Origin: Paenibacillus solani
GTDB lineage: Bacteria > Bacillota > Bacilli > Paenibacillales > Paenibacillaceae
Assembly (NCBI RefSeq): GCF_001277345.1
Contig: NZ_LIUT01000003.1
Coordinates: 545,294-609,293 of the forward strand
DNA length: 64,000 nt
Direction: 5' to 3'
Below are positions 994-16,456 of this stretch, piece after piece. A model generated the notes under the pieces. That model did no database searches and was not told where the DNA came from. It was given only the letters and a program-made list of their open reading frames with translations. Position numbers and translations under genes: made by a program. The stretch's first letter is position 1. Every line of letters starts with the position of its first letter.

Positions 994-1803
994 TTAACGG
1001 TTAGTCTCCAACCACTCCACTGCGTAGTCGACCATCGATCTTTGGTCTGCCAGAACGCAATCAGCCTTGCCGACAAGGCCACGTTTATATGCATTGGGAC
1101 ATTGAGCTTCAAAAGCGGTGCCCAACTCCTCAAAATCGTCTGAATGATAGTTGATATCCTGAAAGGCCTCCCATTCTGTTTTCCCCTGAACTCTGCGAAT
1201 CGGTGCATGAGCGGTAACCACCTTTTTTCCCGCCCAATCTGCACGATACTCGCCAAGATGAAAAGTAGTATTGTTGTCATAACCCGTGCCGAGCAACAAT
1301 ACATAAGCTCCTGCGTCATACAGACGTGCTAGAGGCGAGGCTTCGCCCAAGCTATAATCCAGCGCATGAGTTTGCATGAATGCTTCTGCAAGCCTCCCGC
1401 GCGCTGCAAACGAGACATGCGGATGCAAACTGCGGATGACGCCTGCTTGTTTGCGGAATGTTTCCGCAATAATCCCCATCCCCATACTGGCCGTCAAATT
1501 CGGATCGTAAGGCGGCATTTCATCGCGAATCAGCTCCCACCACTTCGGGTCCGCCGGAGGATACCTCCAAGTCTCTGGATTCGTCAGGTTTGCAGATTGC
1601 GTCGGCATTACCAGCGTTCCCTCTTCACCCAGAACCTCTTCGAGTGCGAGAATGACAGCTTCCGCACCGCCAACGATCCATCCGCCCAGGCTTTTAAGCG
1701 AGGAATGGACCAGTAGCGTCATTCCCTTCTGTACTCCCAGTGCCGCCAGGTCATCACAAATATCTCTTATCGTAATCGGTCTTTCGATGATCAAATGACT
1801 CAC
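994..1803 (-). CDS. AAC(3)-family N-acetyltransferase
   Basis: A 269-residue protein of the aminoglycoside 3-N-acetyltransferase (antibiotic_NAT) family. The N-terminal motif LLVHSSLKSLGG, the segment GTLVMPTQS and the later HPHVSFAARG are typical of the acetyl-CoA-dependent fold. Many chromosomal Bacillus and Paenibacillus members (YokD-like) have no proven resistance role, so an antibiotic substrate is not assured. The start is ambiguous: GTG at 1803 has almost no room for a ribosome binding site, whereas TTG at 1794 lies 6 nt after GAGGTG and may be the real start. It stands alone between the channel gene and the sdh operon. Confidence 0.82.
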   Translation of the reverse strand: MSHLIIERPITIRDICDDLAALGVQKGMTLLVHSSLKSLGGWIVGGAEAVILALEEVLGEEGTLVMPTQSANLTNPETWRYPPADPKWWELIRDEMPPYDPNLTASMGMGIIAETFRKQAGVIRSLHPHVSFAARGRLAEAFMQTHALDYSLGEASPLARLYDAGAYVLLLGTGYDNNTTFHLGEYRADWAGKKVVTAHAPIRRVQGKTEWEAFQDINYHSDDFEELGTAFEAQCPNAYKRGLVGKADCVLADQRSMVDYAVEWLETNR

Positions 1804-6395: not shown

Positions 6396-6437
6396 CAAAA
6401 AGCAACCGCGAGCAAAGACTTCCGGTTGCTTTTTTAG
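6396..6437. terminator. Bidirectional terminator
   Basis: AGCAACCG (6401-6408) and CGGTTGCT (6423-6430) form a stem flanked by A-rich sequence on the left and T-rich on the right. It can end both the LysR gene and the converging Gfo/Idh operon. Confidence 0.8.
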
Positions 6438-6464: not shown

Positions 6465-7490
6465 TTAAGCTTTCAAGCTATCAAAGTATACCTTTTGCCC
6501 TGATTGTGCGGACAAATAAAGCGCTTCAAGCGTCTCGGCAAGTGCAATCCCATCCTGGACAGCATTCGGCAGGCCCGCTTCTCCCTCCATGGCTTTAAGC
6601 CATAATGAAAGGGTGGATTCTCCGGCTTCGCCCATCGCGGCTGCCTCATTCAAAGCCTGCTTCTTCTCTTCTGGGGCAAACAGCCTTATCGTGCTATCGG
6701 AAGGATTCAGTAATTTGCGGTGCACTCCGTTTATACCTCCTCCAAGAAAGCTTCCGGATGTTCCGTAAAGCTCGATAGAGAACGGTGAATGATCGGCTGC
6801 GTAGCTAGTATCGCATATGACCAGTACACCATTCGGAAATTCGAACAATGCTGCCGCATTATCCTCCGCTCGGTGGTCTGTGTAATGAGCCGCAATTGCA
6901 GTTACGGCAATCGGTCGTCCCAACAGCCATCTCAACAGATACAAGCCATGGGCACCAAGATCCGTGAATACGCCATATGGCGTATTCAAATATCGCGAAT
7001 CAAGAGGATTTTCTCCGATCGCTCCGTTATGCGCATTCCGAATCCGAAGGCTGGTAATGTCACCGATGATTCCTGCAGACACGACTCTCTTGGCTGCTAT
7101 ATTGACTGGCCAGCGCCTTAAGGACATATCGATCGCGAAGTGAATATCAAAGCGCTCAATACATTTGGAGATCTTGTTTGCTTCCTGCAACGAAAGGGCC
7201 AGCACTTGGTCGCTGAGTACATGCTTTCCTGCTTGAGCGGCAAGCTCAATCAATGATCCGGCCTCTGCAGGTGAAGAGTCAATAATGACGCCATCCAAAT
7301 CTCCTCTAGCCAACAGCCTCTCTAAATCCGGCTCGAAATCCGTACCAAATTCCTCGGCAAAAAACTTCCCCCGCTCCATAGCGGAATCCCAGACGGCGCT
7401 GATTCGTACATCAGGGAAATCGGCCAAATCTCTAACGAAGCTTCTGGCATGATAGTGATTCCAGCAGCTCAGCATAGCTATATTGGGCAC
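6465..7490 (-). CDS. Gfo/Idh/MocA-like oxidoreductase with atypical motifs
   Basis: A 341-residue protein with the two-domain Gfo/Idh/MocA layout: an N-terminal Rossmann domain and a C-terminal alpha/beta domain. The start is GTG 7490, placed 7 nt after AGGAGG. A longer frame to 7562 would overlap the transporter gene. Two family hallmarks are altered. The dinucleotide motif GxGxxG is replaced by AMLSCWNHYHAR. The EKP catalytic motif reads SDQV at residues 93-96 (KHVLSDQVLALSL), so the usual lysine is absent. It is the last gene of the minus-strand sugar locus. The family usually performs NAD(P)-dependent sugar oxidation or reduction; this member may do something else. Confidence 0.8.
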   Translation of the reverse strand: MPNIAMLSCWNHYHARSFVRDLADFPDVRISAVWDSAMERGKFFAEEFGTDFEPDLERLLARGDLDGVIIDSSPAEAGSLIELAAQAGKHVLSDQVLALSLQEANKISKCIERFDIHFAIDMSLRRWPVNIAAKRVVSAGIIGDITSLRIRNAHNGAIGENPLDSRYLNTPYGVFTDLGAHGLYLLRWLLGRPIAVTAIAAHYTDHRAEDNAAALFEFPNGVLVICDTSYAADHSPFSIELYGTSGSFLGGGINGVHRKLLNPSDSTIRLFAPEEKKQALNEAAAMGEAGESTLSLWLKAMEGEAGLPNAVQDGIALAETLEALYLSAQSGQKVYFDSLKA

Positions 7491-7521
7491 AAGTCTACCT
7501 CCTTTTCCTGAATAATCAAAA

Positions 7522-8418
7522 TCATATATTGACAGCAATGATCGCCAGAATGCCTGTCGCAATTCCAGCCGCTCCCCCGCGCGTCACCTTCTCCTTAAAG
7601 AAGATGGCAGAAGCGAACGTAAGCAGGATGATCATGCTCCCGTTGACAAGCGGATAAAGATAGGCACCCGGCAGCCTGCCTGACAGAACATTCATCAATG
7701 CATTGCCTATACCGGTCGTTAGCGCGACACCGATGATCAGAAGCGTGGACTGCCAATAGACCGGGATTATTTTAGAAGATTCTCCCGAATTCCTAATTCC
7801 GCTGTACCCGCCGCATACCATCCATCCAAGCAGGGAACAAAGTGCCGCCACGGTGAAGCCGACCAGCGTCAGTTCTGCCGCTTCACGGCCGCCCATCAGC
7901 AATTGATGCGTTTTTGCAACCACGGGAATAAGTCCATTGAAGAGAAAAGCAAGCAGGCAATAAGCAAGCCAGCGCTTGTCTGTCTTGCCCGCATTTTCCC
8001 GGTGTTTGCCATAAATCTGGATGAAGTAAAAAGAAAGGAGAAACAGGATCAGTCCGATCCATCTCATAATTCCAGCCTTCTCCTGCCATATTGTCATGCT
8101 GGCCAGAACAGGAACCATGAGACTTGCAGAGAAATAAAAGGAAGAATACGAAAGCGGGCCGGTATTCATCGCGCGCGTGTAGCAGAACATTGTTGAAGTA
8201 AAGACAACACCGTAAAGAGAGCCGAGCAGCCACGTCATCGTGCTGGCCGCCATCTCTGCGGTAAATAAAGACCATACCCACAAACCAATGGCGATAAGAG
8301 AGCAGTAAGCTGCTATAAGTCCGAATGATGCCCGGTTGTTTTGTGGATCCGGCAGCCGTTTAAGACATAAGGACTGGAGAACGAACATGACGGCGGCGGC
8401 AATTGCAGCAAGCAGCAT
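7522..8418 (-). CDS. EamA/DMT-family transporter
   Basis: A 298-residue polytopic protein with about ten hydrophobic helices in two EamA-like halves, typical of the drug/metabolite transporter superfamily. AGGAGG precedes ATG 8418. The gene starts 12 nt after the PIG-L gene and is followed at 31 nt by the Gfo/Idh gene, so it appears co-transcribed. DMT members export or import small metabolites; the substrate is unknown. Its presence in an ABC sugar operon suggests handling of a pathway product or intermediate. Confidence 0.85.
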   Translation of the reverse strand: MLLAAIAAAVMFVLQSLCLKRLPDPQNNRASFGLIAAYCSLIAIGLWVWSLFTAEMAASTMTWLLGSLYGVVFTSTMFCYTRAMNTGPLSYSSFYFSASLMVPVLASMTIWQEKAGIMRWIGLILFLLSFYFIQIYGKHRENAGKTDKRWLAYCLLAFLFNGLIPVVAKTHQLLMGGREAAELTLVGFTVAALCSLLGWMVCGGYSGIRNSGESSKIIPVYWQSTLLIIGVALTTGIGNALMNVLSGRLPGAYLYPLVNGSMIILLTFASAIFFKEKVTRGGAAGIATGILAIIAVNI

Positions 8419-8430
8419 GTTTCCTCCTGC

Positions 8431-9270
8431 TTAATCTGCGGTCGATAGTCCCAGCATCGGGAACATTCGCTGCAATTCTGCGCCGCTAGGGCGGCGACCA
8501 TAAGAAGCAATTTCAAATGGTTCTGCATAACGAACCTTTTTCATATGCTCCTTGCCATATCCGTACTCAAGCGCCGGTCTCATTTCTTCGGAGACGTTCA
8601 TAAATTCGGCCCAGTACTTCAACAGGAAACTCTTTTTGTCCTCCCAACTCTCAGGCACCTCGCCCAGGAAACCGCCCTGCCACGGAGCAAATTCATAGAA
8701 CTGGGAAGCATGAGCATCGCATGCAAGGAGCTTCTTCTCCAGAACGGGCTCAATATCAATGACAAGATCTGCCGAATAGTGCTGTTTCATTGAATAATCA
8801 GGCATTAACAGCACAACGGGGCTTTGATTCAGCGCAGCAGCTTCCGTAACGGCATTCGGCGTCTTGGCAGTGAGTGGAATGGCATCGCCAACTACCTTTC
8901 CAGCGTAACGGTTATCGGGATGTGCTCCTCCTTCAGGATGAAAGGTAATGACCACATCCGCTTTCCAATTTCTAATCTGCCGAATGACCTCGTTACGGAC
9001 CTCAAGGGTGGGAAGCAGTTCTCCATCCGGCGTATGCAGCACTTCGTATTCGTCAATTCCAAGCCTCTTCGCCGCGTCCTCGGCTTCCTGCCTCCGCCGC
9101 TTGACCAGCTCTGTGCGAGTCATCGAATAATGCCCACAGCAGCCGTCTGTCAGAGACAAAAATTTCACCCGATGCCCCAACTCCGCGAATAATGCTGCCG
9201 TTCCACCTGCATAAATGTCCGGTTCATCCGGATGTGCCCCGATGACGATTACACGAATCTCCTCTTTCAT
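8431..9270 (-). CDS. PIG-L family (LmbE-like) deacetylase
   Basis: A 279-residue protein of the PIG-L zinc deacetylase family, whose members remove N-acetyl groups from GlcNAc-containing glycoconjugates (MshB, BshB). The N-terminal zinc motif reads AHPDEPD instead of the usual AHPDDE, so the second acidic ligand is Glu. The second motif is AHPDNRYAG. A YGRRPSGAE segment lies near the C-terminus. AAGGAGG precedes ATG 9270. It sits between the TIM-barrel isomerase and the EamA transporter, which suggests deacetylation of an imported amino-sugar compound. It could instead belong to bacillithiol-type metabolism, but the operon argues against that. Confidence 0.87.
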   Translation of the reverse strand: MKEEIRVIVIGAHPDEPDIYAGGTAALFAELGHRVKFLSLTDGCCGHYSMTRTELVKRRRQEAEDAAKRLGIDEYEVLHTPDGELLPTLEVRNEVIRQIRNWKADVVITFHPEGGAHPDNRYAGKVVGDAIPLTAKTPNAVTEAAALNQSPVVLLMPDYSMKQHYSADLVIDIEPVLEKKLLACDAHASQFYEFAPWQGGFLGEVPESWEDKKSFLLKYWAEFMNVSEEMRPALEYGYGKEHMKKVRYAEPFEIASYGRRPSGAELQRMFPMLGLSTAD

Positions 9271-9301
9271 TCCACACGCCTCCTTAAAGTTTAAGTTATA
9301 T

Positions 9302-10342
9302 TCAACCAGCTAATCCAAGCTCCCTTAGCACCTGCTGAAGGTACTTCCGGGATGACTCCAGCCTGTCGTCCATCTCATCCCAGTAACTGATCGCCTCGTA
9401 TACATCCGGCTTCATCCATTCTCCCGAAGCTATTTTCTGCTCGCAGAGCATTGCCAATCTGACCAGCTCCGTCACTTCTGCCATGTTAAGATCAGGGTGA
9501 ACGTTCCTCCACTCCTCAACAAAAATATCAACATGCATCAATCCCTTGTGATCTTCAACCTGGACATGAAGTTCGGGATTAACCTTGCCAATCTCCGCAA
9601 AGATCGTCTTGTAGTCAACGATCCCTTGACCGGAAGCCTTCAACTGGCGCACCAGCCCGTTCTCCGAAAAATATAAAATACCATCCTTCGCATGCATCTG
9701 ATGAATATATGGCGCAGCCCGTCTGGCAACAGCTACTGGATCTTCGGCCCGGGACAGCACATTGGCCGTATCAAAGGCAACGCCGAGCACATCGTCTCCC
9801 ACCTCCTCAATCATGCGCAGCACTTCATAAGAAGTGATTTCCTCGTGCGTCTCAAGATTGATCCGCGATCCGGCGTCCCTCAGCACTGGTGCCAGCCGCT
9901 TCAAAAAGCGGGTTGTTGCTTGCAGCTGCTCTTCCCAGGTGACATCTGTCCGGAAACGATCGTTCACAAAATATCCGGTGTGCTCTCCACGCCACCCTGC
10001 GGTCACTCCGATAAGCTCCTTTGCACCCATCTCCGCAGCTGCGTAGATTTGCTTCTCCATCGCCAGCTTATAGTCGCCTCCGCCCAGCATCCAAATCTCC
10101 GGCGATTCCGTCGTATTATAAGGGTTAACCCGCCCGATGCCAAAATCGAGGAACATCTCAAGCTGCTGAGCGCATTGACTTGCTGCCCTTAAAGCACCGA
10201 TATCCAATGTCTTGGATACATAGAATGGGGATTTATAATACACTCCCTCGTAACCATCGGCTTTCGCTTTCTGGAGCACTTGCTCAACAGACATATATTC
10301 ATCCCTTAAATAACCGTGATGCAGCTCGATACCTACCTTCAT
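9302..10342 (-). CDS. Sugar phosphate isomerase/epimerase (AP-endonuclease-2 fold)
   Basis: A 346-residue TIM-barrel protein of the xylose-isomerase-like superfamily. The likely metal ligands lie at strand ends: Glu in NLETHEE, Asp in AFDTANV, His in HQMHAKD and Glu in VQVEDHKG. The start is ATG 10342, preceded by GGGGGGCGAG. The frame extends to 10426 but that part crosses an intercistronic stem-loop. Genes of this family next to Gfo/Idh proteins usually act in inositol or rare-sugar catabolism. The exact substrate is unknown. Confidence 0.85.
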   Translation of the reverse strand: MKVGIELHHGYLRDEYMSVEQVLQKAKADGYEGVYYKSPFYVSKTLDIGALRAASQCAQQLEMFLDFGIGRVNPYNTTESPEIWMLGGGDYKLAMEKQIYAAAEMGAKELIGVTAGWRGEHTGYFVNDRFRTDVTWEEQLQATTRFLKRLAPVLRDAGSRINLETHEEITSYEVLRMIEEVGDDVLGVAFDTANVLSRAEDPVAVARRAAPYIHQMHAKDGILYFSENGLVRQLKASGQGIVDYKTIFAEIGKVNPELHVQVEDHKGLMHVDIFVEEWRNVHPDLNMAEVTELVRLAMLCEQKIASGEWMKPDVYEAISYWDEMDDRLESSRKYLQQVLRELGLAG

Positions 10343-10386
10343 GGCTCTCGCCCCCCTACTGTTGTCTTGATCCGGATCCTCATATC

Positions 10387-10422
10387 GAGACAGCCCCTTG
10401 ATAAATAGCAAGAGGCTGTCTC
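10387..10422 (-). promoter_or_regulatory. Intercistronic stem-loop
   Basis: GAGACAGCCCCTTG (10387-10400) faces CAAGAGGCTGTCTC (10409-10422): a 14-bp stem with one wobble and an 8-nt loop. On the minus strand it lies 12 nt after the binding-protein stop codon and has no U-run. Such structures commonly stabilise the upstream mRNA or cut read-through, giving more binding protein than enzyme. Confidence 0.7.
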
Positions 10423-10433
10423 CCATTACTTGC

Positions 10434-12005
10434 TTACTTCAATGTATTGTTATAAATTTCAAGCAATCTGGTAACACCTTTTTCGTTAATTTCCTGCACG
10501 TAATTGTCCCAGTCCTTATCGATCGAAGATTTACCATAGACGAACTGTTCCTGCATTCTCATGAAGTAATCATGAACGGTTGTATTTCTCATCGTCTCTT
10601 CTTCCTTGTCTTCAGGAGTCAGCTTCGGAACTTTGGCAACGGCAGGGAACCAATTCTTCTGATTCGCTTCATCTGTTAGGGATTCAACAAGCGGATTGTT
10701 CAACACCTTAGAAAACCAGTCATATGTAAATACCGTAGTAAAGTTGTTGTTGGAAGCACCCACATTCCATAATGCCTTCTGGATGCTGCCGCTTTCCTTC
10801 ACAGCATCGGTGAAATCCCGCTGGCCGTCCTTCTCCATAAACGTTTCGCCATCAATACCCCAGGTTCCTATATTGATAGCCTCATCGCTATACATCCAGT
10901 TCACGTATTCCAGCAGCTTGTCAAAGTTCGGCTTTTTAGCCGCGCTCTCCGGAATGGCATAAGCGAAGTTGATGCGCTGTGCAGAAGGCCCCTTGACTCC
11001 GCCCGGTCCGGCAATCGGCGGAAGTGGAGCAAGCTCAAAATCCGGCGTTACATTCTTCTTGCCATCCGCATTAATCTGGCCTAACTCGCTGATCCAGGTA
11101 TAGGTGAATACGCTTTGTCCTGTCGCCATTTTCTGCTTCCACTGATCCGTGCTGGAAGTAAAAATCTCCGGATCCGCCAATCCATCCTCCATTAAACGAC
11201 TAAAGAAGGACAAGTATTGTTTATAATTCTCGCTTGTATATGCATATTCGAACTGGTTTGATTCAGAATTGAACAAGAAACCGTTATAGACAGGTCCGAC
11301 ACCCCATGCAGCCCCTGACAAGTTCAACAAGCCGAGCGCTCCGTTGAGGTTGGCCATCGGATAACTGTTGGGATCAGCCTCCTTCAGCTTTTTCAATACC
11401 GTGTACAGCTCGTCCATCGTTGTTGGAGCTTCGAGATTGTATTTTTTGAGCAAATCTACACGTATGACCGGAGCCGTGTTATACATCGCCGATTCGAACA
11501 TAAAAGGCAGCCCATACAACTTGCCATCCTTCAACGTCCAGTTGTCGAGTTCCTCGGAAATATTGTATTTCTCCAGTTTTTCCTTCAAATTTGGCAGTTT
11601 GTCCATATAATCGCTGATCGGCAGTAATACCCCGGTTTGAGCGAATTTCATATAGACAGGGTGTCCGACGGAGCTGATAAGGTCCGGAGCGGTGCCTGAA
11701 CTGAGAACAATATTCAGCTTGTTCTGGTAATCAGCGTCGGGTGTCGGCTGGATCTCCAGCTTCACATTCGCCTGCTTTTGAAATTCCTGCAATACAGGCC
11801 AGGACGCATTGAAGGGATAGGACGGATTATCGTCATACATCATCGTAATCGTGACAGGCCCATCACCGGCTTTTTCTGTAGCCGCACCTCCTTTGTCCTT
11901 CGTGCCAGAGCCTGAGCATGCGGATAAAACTAACGACATCGCCAGCGTAAGCGCGGCTCCCTTGGCAAACCACCTGCTTGCTCTTTTGCCTTGTACCTCT
12001 TTCAT
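10434..12005 (-). CDS. ABC transporter extracellular solute-binding lipoprotein
   Basis: A 523-residue lipoprotein. It has a basic N-terminus, a hydrophobic stretch and the lipobox LSAC with acylated Cys30, then a Ser/Gly/Thr-rich linker. The mature part is a family-1-like solute-binding protein of the large LplA type seen with LplB/LplC permeases in Paenibacillus. AAAGGGAGGC precedes ATG 12005. It lies downstream of both permease genes, in the order permease, permease, binding protein. No ATPase gene is present, so a shared MsmX-type ATPase probably energises uptake. The substrate is likely an oligosaccharide or glycoside; not determinable. Confidence 0.92.
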   Translation of the reverse strand: MKEVQGKRASRWFAKGAALTLAMSLVLSACSGSGTKDKGGAATEKAGDGPVTITMMYDDNPSYPFNASWPVLQEFQKQANVKLEIQPTPDADYQNKLNIVLSSGTAPDLISSVGHPVYMKFAQTGVLLPISDYMDKLPNLKEKLEKYNISEELDNWTLKDGKLYGLPFMFESAMYNTAPVIRVDLLKKYNLEAPTTMDELYTVLKKLKEADPNSYPMANLNGALGLLNLSGAAWGVGPVYNGFLFNSESNQFEYAYTSENYKQYLSFFSRLMEDGLADPEIFTSSTDQWKQKMATGQSVFTYTWISELGQINADGKKNVTPDFELAPLPPIAGPGGVKGPSAQRINFAYAIPESAAKKPNFDKLLEYVNWMYSDEAINIGTWGIDGETFMEKDGQRDFTDAVKESGSIQKALWNVGASNNNFTTVFTYDWFSKVLNNPLVESLTDEANQKNWFPAVAKVPKLTPEDKEEETMRNTTVHDYFMRMQEQFVYGKSSIDKDWDNYVQEINEKGVTRLLEIYNNTLK

Positions 12006-12082
12006 TGTTCAACTGCCTCCCTTTGATTGATATTAATCTATCATTAAAGCTGTTCAGGCTGAGCCTGCGTTTAAAACTGCCT

Positions 12083-12961
12083 TCATCCCTTAACGGAGCC
12101 GATCATAACTCCCTTGGCAAAATACTTCTGTGTGAAAGGGAATATAAGCATGATTGGAAGCGTAGTTGACATAATCGCGGCCGCCTTAAGCGATGCCGTC
12201 GATACACTGTTTCCGATGTCGCCAACCGCGGCGGCATTTCCCGCCAGTTCTGATCCCGAGATAATATTGCGAACAATCATCATAACCGGATGCTTATCCG
12301 TGTTGTTCAGATAAATCATTGAATTGAACCAGTTGTTCCAGTAATACACAATGAGGAACAAGGTAAGCGCCGCTAAAATCGGCTTAGACAACGGAAGCAC
12401 AATTTTTACAAGGATACGAAAAGGTCCTAATCCGTCAAGCATCGCAGATTCTTCAATCTCTTCGGGAATCCCTCCAAAATAAGTCATCATCAGCAGCAAA
12501 TAATAAGGCGTAATACTGAAGGGGAGTACGATAGCCCAAATGGTGTCTAACAGCCCCAGACTCTTGACCAGCATATAGGTTGGAATCAAGCCTCCGCTGA
12601 AAAACATAGTAAACATTATGAAGAGGATAAGCAGTTTACGGCCCTTAAGTGTTCTTTTTGACAGGGGATAAGCACAAATCGTCAGCATGAACAAACTAAG
12701 CGTCGTACCCAACACGGTTTGAAAAATAGAGTTTTTGAACCCAACGATAATACTCGGATGCTCAAAAACGCGAACATACGCATCCAGATTGAAGCCTTTG
12801 GGCCATATTCCTACCTTTCCTCCCACGACTGCGCTGGAATGGCTTAATGAGACGGAAAGAAGATGAAGAAACGGAATTAAGATAGCGGCTACAAGAAGGA
12901 GCATAATGACTGAATTAATAACCATGAACCATTTGAACCCTAGTGAACGTCGGTATAGCAT
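12083..12961 (-). CDS. Carbohydrate ABC transporter permease (LplC-like)
   Basis: A 292-residue inner-membrane permease with six hydrophobic helices. The cytoplasmic EAA loop reads EEIEESAMLDGLGPFRILVK, where the family consensus is EAAxxDGA. It belongs to the MalG/CUT1 class and resembles LplC/YtcP. GGAGGGAGG precedes ATG 12961. The partner permease ends 21 nt upstream. Confidence 0.92.
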   Translation of the reverse strand: MLYRRSLGFKWFMVINSVIMLLLVAAILIPFLHLLSVSLSHSSAVVGGKVGIWPKGFNLDAYVRVFEHPSIIVGFKNSIFQTVLGTTLSLFMLTICAYPLSKRTLKGRKLLILFIMFTMFFSGGLIPTYMLVKSLGLLDTIWAIVLPFSITPYYLLLMMTYFGGIPEEIEESAMLDGLGPFRILVKIVLPLSKPILAALTLFLIVYYWNNWFNSMIYLNNTDKHPVMMIVRNIISGSELAGNAAAVGDIGNSVSTASLKAAAIMSTTLPIMLIFPFTQKYFAKGVMIGSVKG

Positions 12962-12981
12962 TGCAGTTATCCTCCCTCCTG

Positions 12982-13884
12982 CTAATACAATGAAAAGCCG
13001 GATATTTTTCTTGAAATATAGTTGCCCGCCGAGACGAGCACGAGTCCGATTAACCCGCCAAACAGGCCTACGGCTGTAGCGTAGCTGTAATTGTTATTCT
13101 GCAAGCCCATACGGAAGACGAATGTGTCGATAATTTCACTCGTTACGGAGTTGCTAGGCGTATACAGCAATAACACCTTTTCAAATCCAAGCATCAGCAT
13201 GGAACCTAGGGAGATGATCAGCACAACGGAGATCGTCGGCAGAATCTGTGGAATCGTTACACTTAACGTTTGCCGCCATCTCCCGGCGCCATCCATCTCT
13301 GCCGCTTCATATAACTGTGTATCCACCGAGGAGAGAGCTGCAGTATAGATGATGGCATTCCAGCCCATGAACTGCCAGATGTCGGATGAGATGTAGATGG
13401 TCCGGAACCAGCCAGGCTCGTTAACAAAAAAGATGGGGTCGATCCCAAAATACCCCAAAAAGGAATTCACGATCCCGCTCGTGGGAGACAGAATTTCCTT
13501 CAGCATGCCCACGACAACGACAACTGCGACGAAATTCGGGAAATAAGAGATCGTCTGAATCACGGTCTTGATCTTCTTATTCAAAATTTCATTCAGCAGA
13601 AGTGCAAATAGAATGGGGAGCGTAAACGTAATAGCCAAATTCATAACGCTCAGGAGAATCGTATTCTGAAACGCCTTCCAGAAGCTGGGGTCATTCCAGA
13701 ACATTTTGAAGTACTGAAGTCCGACCCATTCCTCCCCGTATATTGACCCGCCCGGTACATACTTTCTAAAGGCGAGCACGTTACCGATAATTGGCCCGTA
13801 TCTGAAAATAATGAAATAAACAATTGGCAGTATGAGCATGATGTAATACGCTTTGTAGCGTTTGAAATATGGACTCACCCGCAT
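12982..13884 (-). CDS. Carbohydrate ABC transporter permease (LplB-like)
   Basis: A 300-residue permease of the MalF/CUT1 class with about six helices and the EAA loop LYEAAEMDGAGRWRQTLSVT. AAGGAGG precedes ATG 13884. It is the first gene of the minus-strand locus, so the operon promoter lies in the 259-nt divergent region shared with the AraC-type regulator. Confidence 0.92.
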   Translation of the reverse strand: MRVSPYFKRYKAYYIMLILPIVYFIIFRYGPIIGNVLAFRKYVPGGSIYGEEWVGLQYFKMFWNDPSFWKAFQNTILLSVMNLAITFTLPILFALLLNEILNKKIKTVIQTISYFPNFVAVVVVVGMLKEILSPTSGIVNSFLGYFGIDPIFFVNEPGWFRTIYISSDIWQFMGWNAIIYTAALSSVDTQLYEAAEMDGAGRWRQTLSVTIPQILPTISVVLIISLGSMLMLGFEKVLLLYTPSNSVTSEIIDTFVFRMGLQNNNYSYATAVGLFGGLIGLVLVSAGNYISRKISGFSLY

Positions 13885-14143
13885 ACCAACCTCCTTCTTT
13901 GTAATCTTCCATTATCCAAACACATCCGAAAACCGCTTACTACAGCCAAATCAAGCCGAATGTCACACGAATCTACTTCTTCAAAGTCACAAAAAATAAT
14001 CTTGTAACACTTTTCTACCTATTTGCTTAATGAATAGCTTGACTCGTTGACAAGAAAGCGCATCCATAATACTCTTTGTGTCTAAGCAACGAATAACTCG
14101 GGACGGATGTCAGGTGGCTGGATAAGAAAGGTGGGTTTAAGGA
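13885..14143. promoter_or_regulatory. Divergent promoter region of the sugar locus
   Basis: 259 nt between the first permease and the AraC-type regulator. On the plus strand TTGACA (14047-14052) is spaced 17 nt from TACTCT (14070-14075), a plausible sigma-A promoter for the regulator. The minus-strand promoter was not pinned down. Operator sites for the AraC protein would be expected here. Confidence 0.5.
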
Positions 14144-16456
14144 ATGGGGCGGGTGACTAACATATGGAAGGTTGGTTTCCAAAGTATCTTTTTTCGGTTC
14201 ATCATTTTGTTTGTCTCCATATCCTTGTTTATTCAAATCATTAATTTCGCAACTTACAATATGTATTTGCAGTATGTGCAGAGCCACATCGAAACCAACT
14301 ACATCAGCTCTCTCTCTAACGTGGCTTCTTCTCTTAACCATCTGTTTGAGGGGATATATCAATCCAACTTTTTGCTTGCGCTTGACCGAAGCATTCTGAG
14401 TGTCTTCTCCGAGGAAGAAGACAACAAAGATATATCTAAATACGCCGACATTAGCCAAAGCGTTAGATCCTTAGCGAGGATTAAATATTTTGATTCATTT
14501 ATTGACAGCGCTTATATTTACAAAAAGAAAGACGACCTTATTATTAGCAATGAAGGTACCTTCTCGGCCTCTTTCTTCTATGATAAGGTGTACCGGTTTG
14601 AGGAGTATCCCGCCGATTTCTGGAAATCGAATCATACCAGCAACCAGTTGTTCTCCATTTTGCCCCCCTCACAGATCAGCGGAACAACAAAGAATGTAGA
14701 CAAGGTCATTATCCCGATTGTTCAGACTAAGATTGCGGAATATTGGTCCAACAATCTGTATGTTATCAACCTGAATGCTCAAGCCATAGTGCGACTGCTG
14801 CAAGATTACAAATTAACGCCGGGCAGCATATTGTTCATTGCCGATAAGGAAGGGACGATGCTGTCTTCCTCTGAAGCCGATTTTGTCCGTAATTCGGAGT
14901 TGCAGGCATTCATGTCCAGTCTTCTTAGAACCTCGGATACCGGGGCACCAGTAAACTATCGTGAACAAAAAATGAGGGTAATCACCCTCAACACAAATTT
15001 TTTCTATAACGATGTCGTCATGATCGCCGCTGTGCCGGAAAATGAAATCCGCAGCAGTCTAAGCAATCTGGAGAAATTGAGGACTTGGTCGACGATATTC
15101 ACTTTCCTTCTCTCCTTGATCTTGTCGGTGGCTTTCAGCAAGAATCTGTATGCCCCGATTAAATCGCTCGTAGATCGGCTGAATGGCCCGCGTAACAATG
15201 AATTTAAATACCTGAATGATGAGATTGGCCGGATTATGAACAATGTACAATCGCTTAATCAGCAGCTTTCCTACGCGCTTCCACTAGCAAATGAGCAGTC
15301 CCTGGTAAAAATGCTGAAATATAACTACCTGTATGATGATGTCAGCATCGAAATCCATCCGCATAATAGCAGCTTTTCATTTGAACACGACCATTTTATC
15401 ATCACCGTCTTCCAGTTCAATTTCCGGAAGCCTTTCTATCATTCGTTCAGTGAATCCTTTCAGAGCGATTCTTCGAGAATGCTTACAAGCCTTTTAAAGG
15501 CGCTGCTGCCCGCAGATCATCCCTGCTACTTTCTGGAGATGGATGCCCATTTGTTCTGCTTGCTCGCTAACGTACCGGAGGGGACCTCTCAGGAGTTCTA
15601 TCAGCGGTATTGCGAGGATATTGTGGAGCTGTTCCGTACGGATGAGGACTTCCTCAGAGTTCATGCCGGAATCGGAAGCGTGGGCCATGGATATAAAGGG
15701 ATGCGCCAGTCATATATTCAAGCGATGAAGGCGCTCTGGCGCATTTCTCCATTCGATGGAAAGCGCGTTTATACATACACGGATATAGACCAGGAACCGG
15801 GCGTGATGCGATATTTGCTAAGCAGAGATGACGAGAATCGGCTGTTCAATCTGCTCTTATCTGATAAGAAGGAGGAAATGCATGATCTGTTAAAGAAAAT
15901 TATCGATCAAAACTTGGCTGCACGTATTTCTCCTTCACTGCTCAAGGAGCTGTACATGAGATTTTATATGATCGGCCTCCAGGTTCTGAAGCAGCGGGAC
16001 AAGGATTTGGATGAGGAAACCAGCAATCTGTATACGAGTTTTATTCTTTCTAATGAGTCCTTATCCGTAGATCAAATCACGGAATCCATTTTCTCCTATT
16101 TTGACACGGTTTCAAGCTTGTCCAGCGAAACGCTCAAATTTGACGTCGGTTCCTTCAAAGCCTTCATAGACGGGCATTATTACGAGGATATTCATTTGGA
16201 AATGCTAGCCCAGAAGTACAATACTTCCGCGCAGTATATGTCCCGTCTACTAAAAAGAGAGCTTGGCATGGGCTTCCAGGAATATTTACTGGATCTTAGA
16301 ATTCGTAGAGCCAAAGAGCTGCTATCTCAATCCGACCGCAAAATCGGGGACATCTGGGAAGCTGTCGGCTTCAATAACAGAAATACATTTATTCGCGCCT
16401 TTAAAGGCAAAGAGGGCATTACACCAAGCGAATATCGGAAAAACATGAATAAATAA
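14144..16456 (+). CDS. Membrane-anchored AraC family transcriptional regulator
   Basis: A 770-residue regulator with three parts. The N-terminus has a membrane helix (about 15-40), an extracellular sensor region and a second helix near residue 310-328. The middle cytoplasmic region carries no recognised enzyme motif. The C-terminal 100 residues form an AraC double helix-turn-helix, including HLEMLAQKYNTSAQYMSRLL and DIWEAVGFNNRNTFIRAFK. This architecture is common for Paenibacillus regulators paired with LplABC transporters. Divergent placement supports control of the adjacent transport operon. Confidence 0.9.
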   Translation: MGRVTNIWKVGFQSIFFRFIILFVSISLFIQIINFATYNMYLQYVQSHIETNYISSLSNVASSLNHLFEGIYQSNFLLALDRSILSVFSEEEDNKDISKYADISQSVRSLARIKYFDSFIDSAYIYKKKDDLIISNEGTFSASFFYDKVYRFEEYPADFWKSNHTSNQLFSILPPSQISGTTKNVDKVIIPIVQTKIAEYWSNNLYVINLNAQAIVRLLQDYKLTPGSILFIADKEGTMLSSSEADFVRNSELQAFMSSLLRTSDTGAPVNYREQKMRVITLNTNFFYNDVVMIAAVPENEIRSSLSNLEKLRTWSTIFTFLLSLILSVAFSKNLYAPIKSLVDRLNGPRNNEFKYLNDEIGRIMNNVQSLNQQLSYALPLANEQSLVKMLKYNYLYDDVSIEIHPHNSSFSFEHDHFIITVFQFNFRKPFYHSFSESFQSDSSRMLTSLLKALLPADHPCYFLEMDAHLFCLLANVPEGTSQEFYQRYCEDIVELFRTDEDFLRVHAGIGSVGHGYKGMRQSYIQAMKALWRISPFDGKRVYTYTDIDQEPGVMRYLLSRDDENRLFNLLLSDKKEEMHDLLKKIIDQNLAARISPSLLKELYMRFYMIGLQVLKQRDKDLDEETSNLYTSFILSNESLSVDQITESIFSYFDTVSSLSSETLKFDVGSFKAFIDGHYYEDIHLEMLAQKYNTSAQYMSRLLKRELGMGFQEYLLDLRIRRAKELLSQSDRKIGDIWEAVGFNNRNTFIRAFKGKEGITPSEYRKNMNK

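Follow-up and report, generated by a model that had tools for sequence, protein, structure and literature searches.

A conserved Paenibacillaceae gene cluster of probable import and processing function, with a PIG-L protein of altered metal-binding motif

Positions 6465–16456 of the window, meaning the entire 64,000-nucleotide stretch of Paenibacillus solani contig NZ_LIUT01000003.1 analyzed here, hold seven minus-strand genes opposite a divergent regulator. In order of transcription these encode two ATP-binding cassette (ABC) permeases, a solute-binding protein (SBP), a TIM-barrel protein (TIM), a PIG-L (LmbE-like) protein, an EamA transporter, and a Gfo/Idh/MocA-fold protein (Gfo); all eight genes were found as open reading frames (ORFs) and by Pfam. 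The gene set recurs in related genomes, and its PIG-L protein belongs to a clade, here called HPDE/DN after its motif, in which two residues of the usual metal site differ together. The locus likely serves to import a small sugar-like compound and to process it enzymatically; this compound possibly carries nitrogen, judging from genes adjoining clade members elsewhere. The explanation put forward as a whole, tentatively and with confidence just short of even, is a conserved Paenibacillaceae operon for the uptake and processing of a small nitrogen-bearing sugar-like compound, in which the PIG-L protein has a re-worked metal site.

The HPDE/DN clade changes two of the His2-Asp residues at once and is a test of how far a metallohydrolase fold can be re-worked; the annotation “PIG-L deacetylase” in such operons may be wrong, and the neighboring permeases and amidohydrolase described below provide a concrete lead to the substrate. 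The gene set was not found described in a literature search conducted at the level of titles and abstract openings, with subscription journals mostly outside its coverage and the motif itself not searched.

Conservation of the gene set

The comparison set consisted of the 14 loci whose TIM protein is at least 59% identical to that of the window (the window itself, L036–L043, L047, L050, L051, L066, and L075). Throughout this set the PIG-L gene (8431–9270 in the window, minus strand; PF02585, E = 2.5e-24) adjoins the TIM gene (9302–10342, minus strand, 346 aa; AP_endonuc_2 of the isomerase/epimerase/lyase type, PF01261, 7.2e-19), in either order, and the Gfo gene (6465–7490, minus strand, 341 aa; PF22725 at 1.3e-22, PF02894, and PF01408, all above cut-off) lies within the same gene run (14/14 for both). 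An EamA gene of the DMT superfamily (7522–8418, minus strand; PF00892, 1.3e-08) is present in 12 loci, and a second PIG-L gene occupies its place in L040 and L066. The same ABC set accompanies 13 of the 14, with the L039 contig beginning inside the first permease gene; in L050, the block TIM-PIGL-EamA-Gfo stands behind a different ABC set and a two-component-like pair, the latter recognized by eye. The regulator is present and divergent in most relatives, with none visible in L039 and another regulator in L050.

Among 295 genomes of the family, a TIM ortholog (at least 634 bits; next-best score, 304 bits) was found in 11 and a Gfo ortholog (at least 448 bits; next-best score, 268 bits) in the identical 11, and all of these are among the 24 genomes with a member of the PIG-L clade (at least 299 bits). 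The profiles A2 and A3 derive from loci to which PIG-L had led and could favor PIG-L-linked members; co-occurrence was read from all 295 genomes. Because the gene content recurs in 13 other loci and TIM and Gfo share the same 11 of 295 genomes, the arrangement goes beyond chance, and on these sequence comparisons the TIM, PIG-L, EamA, and Gfo genes are regarded as one evolutionary unit. A preliminary description of this DNA had proposed a single carbohydrate-type import and processing unit, and the 14-locus comparison supports a conserved unit of that kind. Ratios of nonsynonymous to synonymous substitution rates (dN/dS) among L036, L043, and L075 were 0.05–0.07 for PIG-L and likewise for TIM, about 0.05 for the SBP, 0.10–0.14 for Gfo, and 0.16–0.21 for EamA, values that indicate purifying selection, strong in the case of PIG-L; in comparisons with the window, synonymous sites were saturated for PIG-L and TIM.

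That description had also tied the single system to retention of the PIG-L and Gfo genes in related strains, and here the result divides: close relatives keep both without exception, whereas six more distant loci (L139, L140, L141, L068, L069, and L071), which have a TIM 36–40% identical and an M24 gene, are without a Gfo ortholog, and three of the six are also without PIG-L. These sister operons share their regulator and ABC set with the window but have an M24 peptidase-like gene and a diverged TIM; in L069, L139, and L141, two TIM genes were detected.

Active-site residues of the encoded proteins

All LmbE-like enzymes characterized by 2014 bind metal through an HXD1D2 motif and a further His (His2-Asp), according to a 2014 review of the superfamily (PMC4101496). 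The window protein and its relatives carry an HPDE...DN motif instead: E16 replaces D2 and N120 replaces the third-ligand His in 34 of 34 clade rows (34 of the 35 rows of alignment A1, which contains the window protein and 34 of 38 related ORFs, the near-copies L044, L047, L065, and L073 being omitted). The sole exception in A1, the Bacteroidota protein L048 (46% identity), has the canonical motif and was excluded from clade counts, and L044 and L076, which are one genome region, were counted once; a creatininase gene beside the L048 PIG-L was not used as a clue, since that PIG-L is canonical. Nineteen further PIG-L proteins, three of them paralogs from the window's own genome, served as controls: D16 and H120 occur in 19 of 19, and one control (L002) is without D15. 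H13, D15, R59, D119, and R121 are invariant in all 35 A1 rows, the D15 position being the general base of the LmbE-like family. H111, part of an F-H-P motif, occurs in all 34 clade rows and could be a substitute ligand for N120; only L080 among the controls has a His there, beside a gap.

The HPDE/DN clade is confined here to Paenibacillaceae, and a phylum-wide search of 398 genomes with A1 recovered it from the own genome only, five other genomes matching far more weakly at just 107–120 bits. On the PIG-L tree, which was made by a quick method and has ten unresolved forks and long branches to the outgroup, window-type loci need two label changes, and a single clade of them is not demonstrated. 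A second HPDE/DN member of the own genome (L057, 9521–10384; 60% identity) lies on another contig beside class 3 lipase and TPR genes, and ORFs matching these neighbors in size flank the clade member in L058 and L059.

The AlphaFold2 (AF2) model of the window PIG-L has a predicted local distance difference test score (pLDDT) of 94.5, and the folds most similar to it are those of diacetylchitobiose deacetylases (8bgo, 28% identity in the aligned part), with matches down to E = 1.4e-17 and the hydratase GalB also among them. None of the NCBIfam cut-offs was reached (BshB1, 96.8 versus 182.5 bits; BshB2, 59.1 versus 195.25; Mca, 35.3 versus 277.15; MshB, 27.4 versus 224.35), and filing under the bacillithiol or mycothiol pathways was rejected on these scores. 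The protein is most likely functional, since its dN/dS resembles that of TIM and SBP.

The preliminary description had envisaged the import, deacetylation, and rearrangement of a small N-acetylated sugar or pseudosugar; spelled out in enzyme terms, this would be canonical N-deacetylation by a zinc PIG-L enzyme, then isomerization, and then an NAD-dependent oxidation or reduction. This scheme draws on the PIG-L fold with its deacetylase relatives, on the conserved D15 and R59, and on locus L063, where a NagC-like ROK protein, an NgcE-like binding protein, a GH4 protein, and a NagK-like kinase, all scoring below NCBIfam cut-offs, resemble GlcNAc-type functions and so point toward amino sugars, in favor of that idea; GH4 occurs also in L060 and L065 and as a fragment in L044, and the NagK-like gene also in L065. 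The HXDD-plus-His site of the enzymes characterized by 2014 (PMC4101496) is nevertheless not the one found here, with one zinc-site residue replaced and another changed, and the loss of the EKP lysine from most Gfo orthologs, detailed below, speaks against the NAD step. Canonical GlcNAc-type deacetylation by this PIG-L is thus not supported, and we consider the scheme unlikely overall. The altered metal site and the fold shared with GalB would also suit a non-hydrolytic, hydratase-like reaction, or no reaction at all in a binding pseudoenzyme; however, the five invariant residues and the low dN/dS suggest a constrained active site, and H111 of the conserved F-H-P could stand in as a ligand; we hold this alternative to be quite improbable.

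In the TIM protein, E164, D191, H217, and E263 are kept in 14 of 14 orthologs and fit the metal-binding residues of epimerases and isomerases of this family. Its similarity to solved proteins is weak, the match to D-tagatose 3-epimerase having E = 0.028. Filing under inositol catabolism (IolE/IolG) was rejected because both scores are far under the NCBIfam cut-offs (IolE, 22.5 versus 290 bits; IolG, 83.1 versus 355 bits).

The AF2 model of Gfo (pLDDT 89.1) has a clear Gfo/Idh fold. In Gfo/Idh/MocA dehydrogenases GxGxxG is the dinucleotide loop motif and the EKP lysine assists hydride transfer. The window protein is without GxGxxG (LSCWNHYH instead), and its SDQV aligns over the EKP of solved dehydrogenases; in the 14 orthologs EKP is replaced by DQ, DH, DM, or DK, the lysine position being Q in eight, H in two, M in one, and K in three (lost in 11/14), while D176 and H180 are kept in all. 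With the Gfo profile, 231 of the 295 genomes give matches of E = 1e-45 or lower, the ortholog being present in 11 of these. Nineteen weaker matches that were inspected (L120–L138, a sister group) all lack GxGxxG and all keep TEK (19/19), and EK is kept in 22 of 22 more distant rows. The L120–L138 proteins carry LS.WHVHA or a similar sequence, and for 15 of the 19 the short locus also has an EKP-type Gfo gene close by. A classical dehydrogenase step by Gfo finds no support, the EKP lysine being missing.

A keto-glycoside route like levoglucosan catabolism would have a Gfo-type oxidation followed by beta-elimination and hydration by TIM, with PIG-L trimming an amide. According to PMC7676230, the levoglucosan cluster includes LgdB1 and LgdB2, annotated as sugar phosphate isomerases, LgdC, annotated as Gfo/Idh/MocA, and a sugar ABC binding protein, and the retained TIM metal residues would fit such a route. 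It requires a working dehydrogenase, however, and the sole Gfo here is without GxGxxG and the lysine; there is also one TIM gene here versus two, TIM matches to solved proteins are only weak, and the likeness to the Lgd proteins is one of annotation, not of direct comparison. We regard this route as rather improbable.

Neighboring genes, importer, and transcription signals

The PIG-L clade was found in 35 loci, of which 14 are window-type, three have M24 and a TIM 39–40% identical, nine have the order ROK-SBP-permease-permease (type B), three have PIG-L alone, and six are otherwise organized. In seven of the nine type-B loci, a gene for a purine-type NCS2 permease (PF00860) lies directly behind PIG-L, and the NCS2 genes fall into two sequence groups that track PIG-L subclades. 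Eight of the nine type-B genomes were counted and have just 2–6 NCS2 matches each, so that the adjacency would not be expected by chance. In L041, L042, and L047, TIM and EamA are separated by an amidohydrolase gene; the L042 protein reaches 492.8 bits against the NF004801 cut-off of 416, those of L041 and L047 are 92% identical to it, and the solved protein closest to it carries the name 8-oxoguanine deaminase / hydroxydechloroatrazine ethylaminohydrolase. The NCS2 neighbors and the nucleobase-deaminase-like amidohydrolase are weak hints of a nitrogenous substrate or product.

Other neighbors are recorded here in their own right. In L036 an ANT(6)-like adenylyltransferase gene (1888–2727; below cut-off) lies upstream of the regulator and an AlkZ-like gene downstream, and L037 and L043 are alike by eye; these flanks of the Cohnella-type loci are probably synteny and were rejected as substrate clues, as they may be plain synteny. 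In L045 (8429–10831), EutH is followed at a distance of roughly 0.4 kb by a clade PIG-L, and a PduL-like gene was recognized by eye in the vicinity; L046 is alike by ORF sizes only. L145 (10474–14870) has a distant TIM homolog near AAC(3)-like, M81/MlrC, and aminotransferase genes, another uncharacterized cluster. In the window, outside the operon, 994–1803 (minus strand) encodes an AAC(3)-like N-acetyltransferase (204.8 bits versus the AAC_3 cut-off of 270).

The importer genes identified by Pfam are two permeases and a binding protein, all on the minus strand: PermF (12982–13884; UgpA/MalF-like, PF00528 at 1.2e-16, with UgpA the best NCBIfam match, below cut-off), PermG (12083–12961; MalG/UgpE-like, PF00528 at 2e-07, NCBIfam matches below cut-off), and the SBP (10434–12005; SBP_bac_1 at 2.7e-28, with a lipoprotein-like signal by eye). 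We assume the importer to be of the CUT1 (sugar) type. Pfam gave no match to a glycosidase, kinase, or ABC ATPase among the eight proteins, bearing out the absence noted in the preliminary description, and two MalK-type ATPase genes (OB_MalK matches) lie elsewhere in the genome, outside the operon. The regulator (14144–16456, plus strand) is an AraC-type protein of 770 aa with a Cache-like stretch (HTH_18 at 4.8e-22; GGDEF_2 above and dCache_1 below cut-off), judged by eye to span the membrane, and is separated from PermF by the intergenic region 13885–14143. In NCBIfam, seven of the eight proteins were matched, none over cut-off among the matches listed (for the regulator, the best 25 of 27), and EamA had no match. 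The gene list and limits given earlier were right by ORF calls and Pfam, apart from two revised start codons: Gfo most likely starts at GTG 7490, with AAAGGAGG upstream, and consequently does not overlap EamA, and TIM most likely starts at ATG 10342, the start shared by most homologs. With these coordinates the gaps are 20 nt for PermF-PermG, 77 for PermG-SBP, 91 for SBP-TIM, 31 for TIM-PIGL, 12 for PIGL-EamA, and 31 for EamA-Gfo.

Part of the SBP-TIM gap in the window is filled by a 14-bp hairpin (10387–10422, minus strand; minimum free energy [MFE] of -27.1 for a 93-nt stretch, z = -2.23) that no U-run follows. The same gap was folded in six relatives: L036, L043, and L075 have a hairpin followed by a U-run, the run after the L037 hairpin is weaker, and no such hairpin was found in the 25 and 23 nt, parts of flanking codons included, folded for L039 and L040. 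A hairpin 3′ of a binding-protein gene often tunes the expression level of that gene, and this one does not by itself make two systems; partial termination or transcript separation between SBP and TIM is possible in some relatives. The preliminary description had also made the single system depend on the absence of transcript ends between the ABC genes and the rest; the U-run hairpins of three relatives are evidence against a uniform transcript. A terminator-like hairpin lies 3′ of Gfo (6397–6434, minus strand; MFE -20.8 for an 82-nt stretch, z = -2.40), its 3′ arm ending in a U-run. Scans for promoters (20 sites versus a shuffled mean of 16.2) and terminators (15 versus 11.0) were not clearly above chance.

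Proposed route and comparison with known systems

Under the proposed explanation, the importer, which has no ATPase of its own and would be powered by a MalK-type ATPase encoded elsewhere, would take up a nitrogen-carrying small sugar-like compound. The TIM barrel, with its four metal-binding residues, would isomerize or beta-eliminate the imported compound, and the PIG-L protein, using a re-worked metal site (H13, E16, N120, and perhaps H111), would cleave a C-N (amide-type) bond. EamA would transport a small molecule, either substrate or product, through the membrane, a role possibly filled by NCS2 permeases in type-B loci, and Gfo would bind a sugar intermediate but probably not carry out hydride transfer with the help of the usual lysine.

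Several observations tell against this explanation. The nitrogen in the substrate is deduced from neighboring genes only. Two of the nine type-B loci (L064 and L044/L076) have no NCS2 gene beside PIG-L, there are few independent NCS2 events because the nine loci form one PIG-L clade, and the EamA ortholog of L044 (46% identity) is encoded ahead of ROK at the opposite end of its operon, some 4.6 kb away from PIG-L, and so does not fill the NCS2 place. The three amidohydrolase loci likewise constitute one clade. By spacing, H117 corresponds to the conserved His found three positions ahead of the third ligand, and 4 of the 35 A1 rows have Ser there; with two metal-site positions changed and H117 variable, PIG-L might not be a hydrolase. 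Finally, in three of the six folded relatives a U-run hairpin stands between the ABC genes and the remaining genes, which counts against a uniform transcript.

A more specific and speculative idea, to which we give only a small chance, is that the HPDE/DN proteins form a new group of enzymes that use another metal or lack a classical zinc site and that free a heterocyclic (purine- or pyrimidine-like) base or an amine from an imported sugar conjugate; EamA or either NCS2 group would carry the base, and the amidohydrolase would process it further in some operons.

The window PIG-L shares with the LmbE-like deacetylases (MshB, BshB, and diacetylchitobiose deacetylase) the fold and the conserved H13, D15, R59, and D119 (35/35), and differs from them in that the clade has Glu for ligand D2 and Asn for the third-ligand His (34/34). 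Similarly, Gfo resembles the Gfo/Idh/MocA oxidoreductases (GenD2 and inositol dehydrogenases) in fold and in keeping D176 and H180, but departs from them in the missing GxGxxG and in the orthologs’ substitutions for EKP. The ROK-SBP-perm-perm-PIGL-NCS2 loci of Paenibacillaceae have the same PIG-L clade beside an ABC importer, but their regulator is unrelated, their ABC set only distantly similar, NCS2 present in 7/9, and a TIM or Gfo ortholog absent. The levoglucosan cluster LgdA-B1-B2-C, as far as the available part of PMC7676230 describes it, likewise groups sugar-isomerase-annotated and Gfo/Idh/MocA-annotated proteins with a sugar ABC binding protein; that part mentions neither PIG-L nor EamA for the cluster, and the Lgd enzymes oxidize and reduce sugars, whereas the window has a single TIM and a single Gfo in which the usual motifs are missing. 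By analogy, the levoglucosan pathway is the closest worked-out logic, but the odd Gfo and the PIG-L protein make the present locus a different set.

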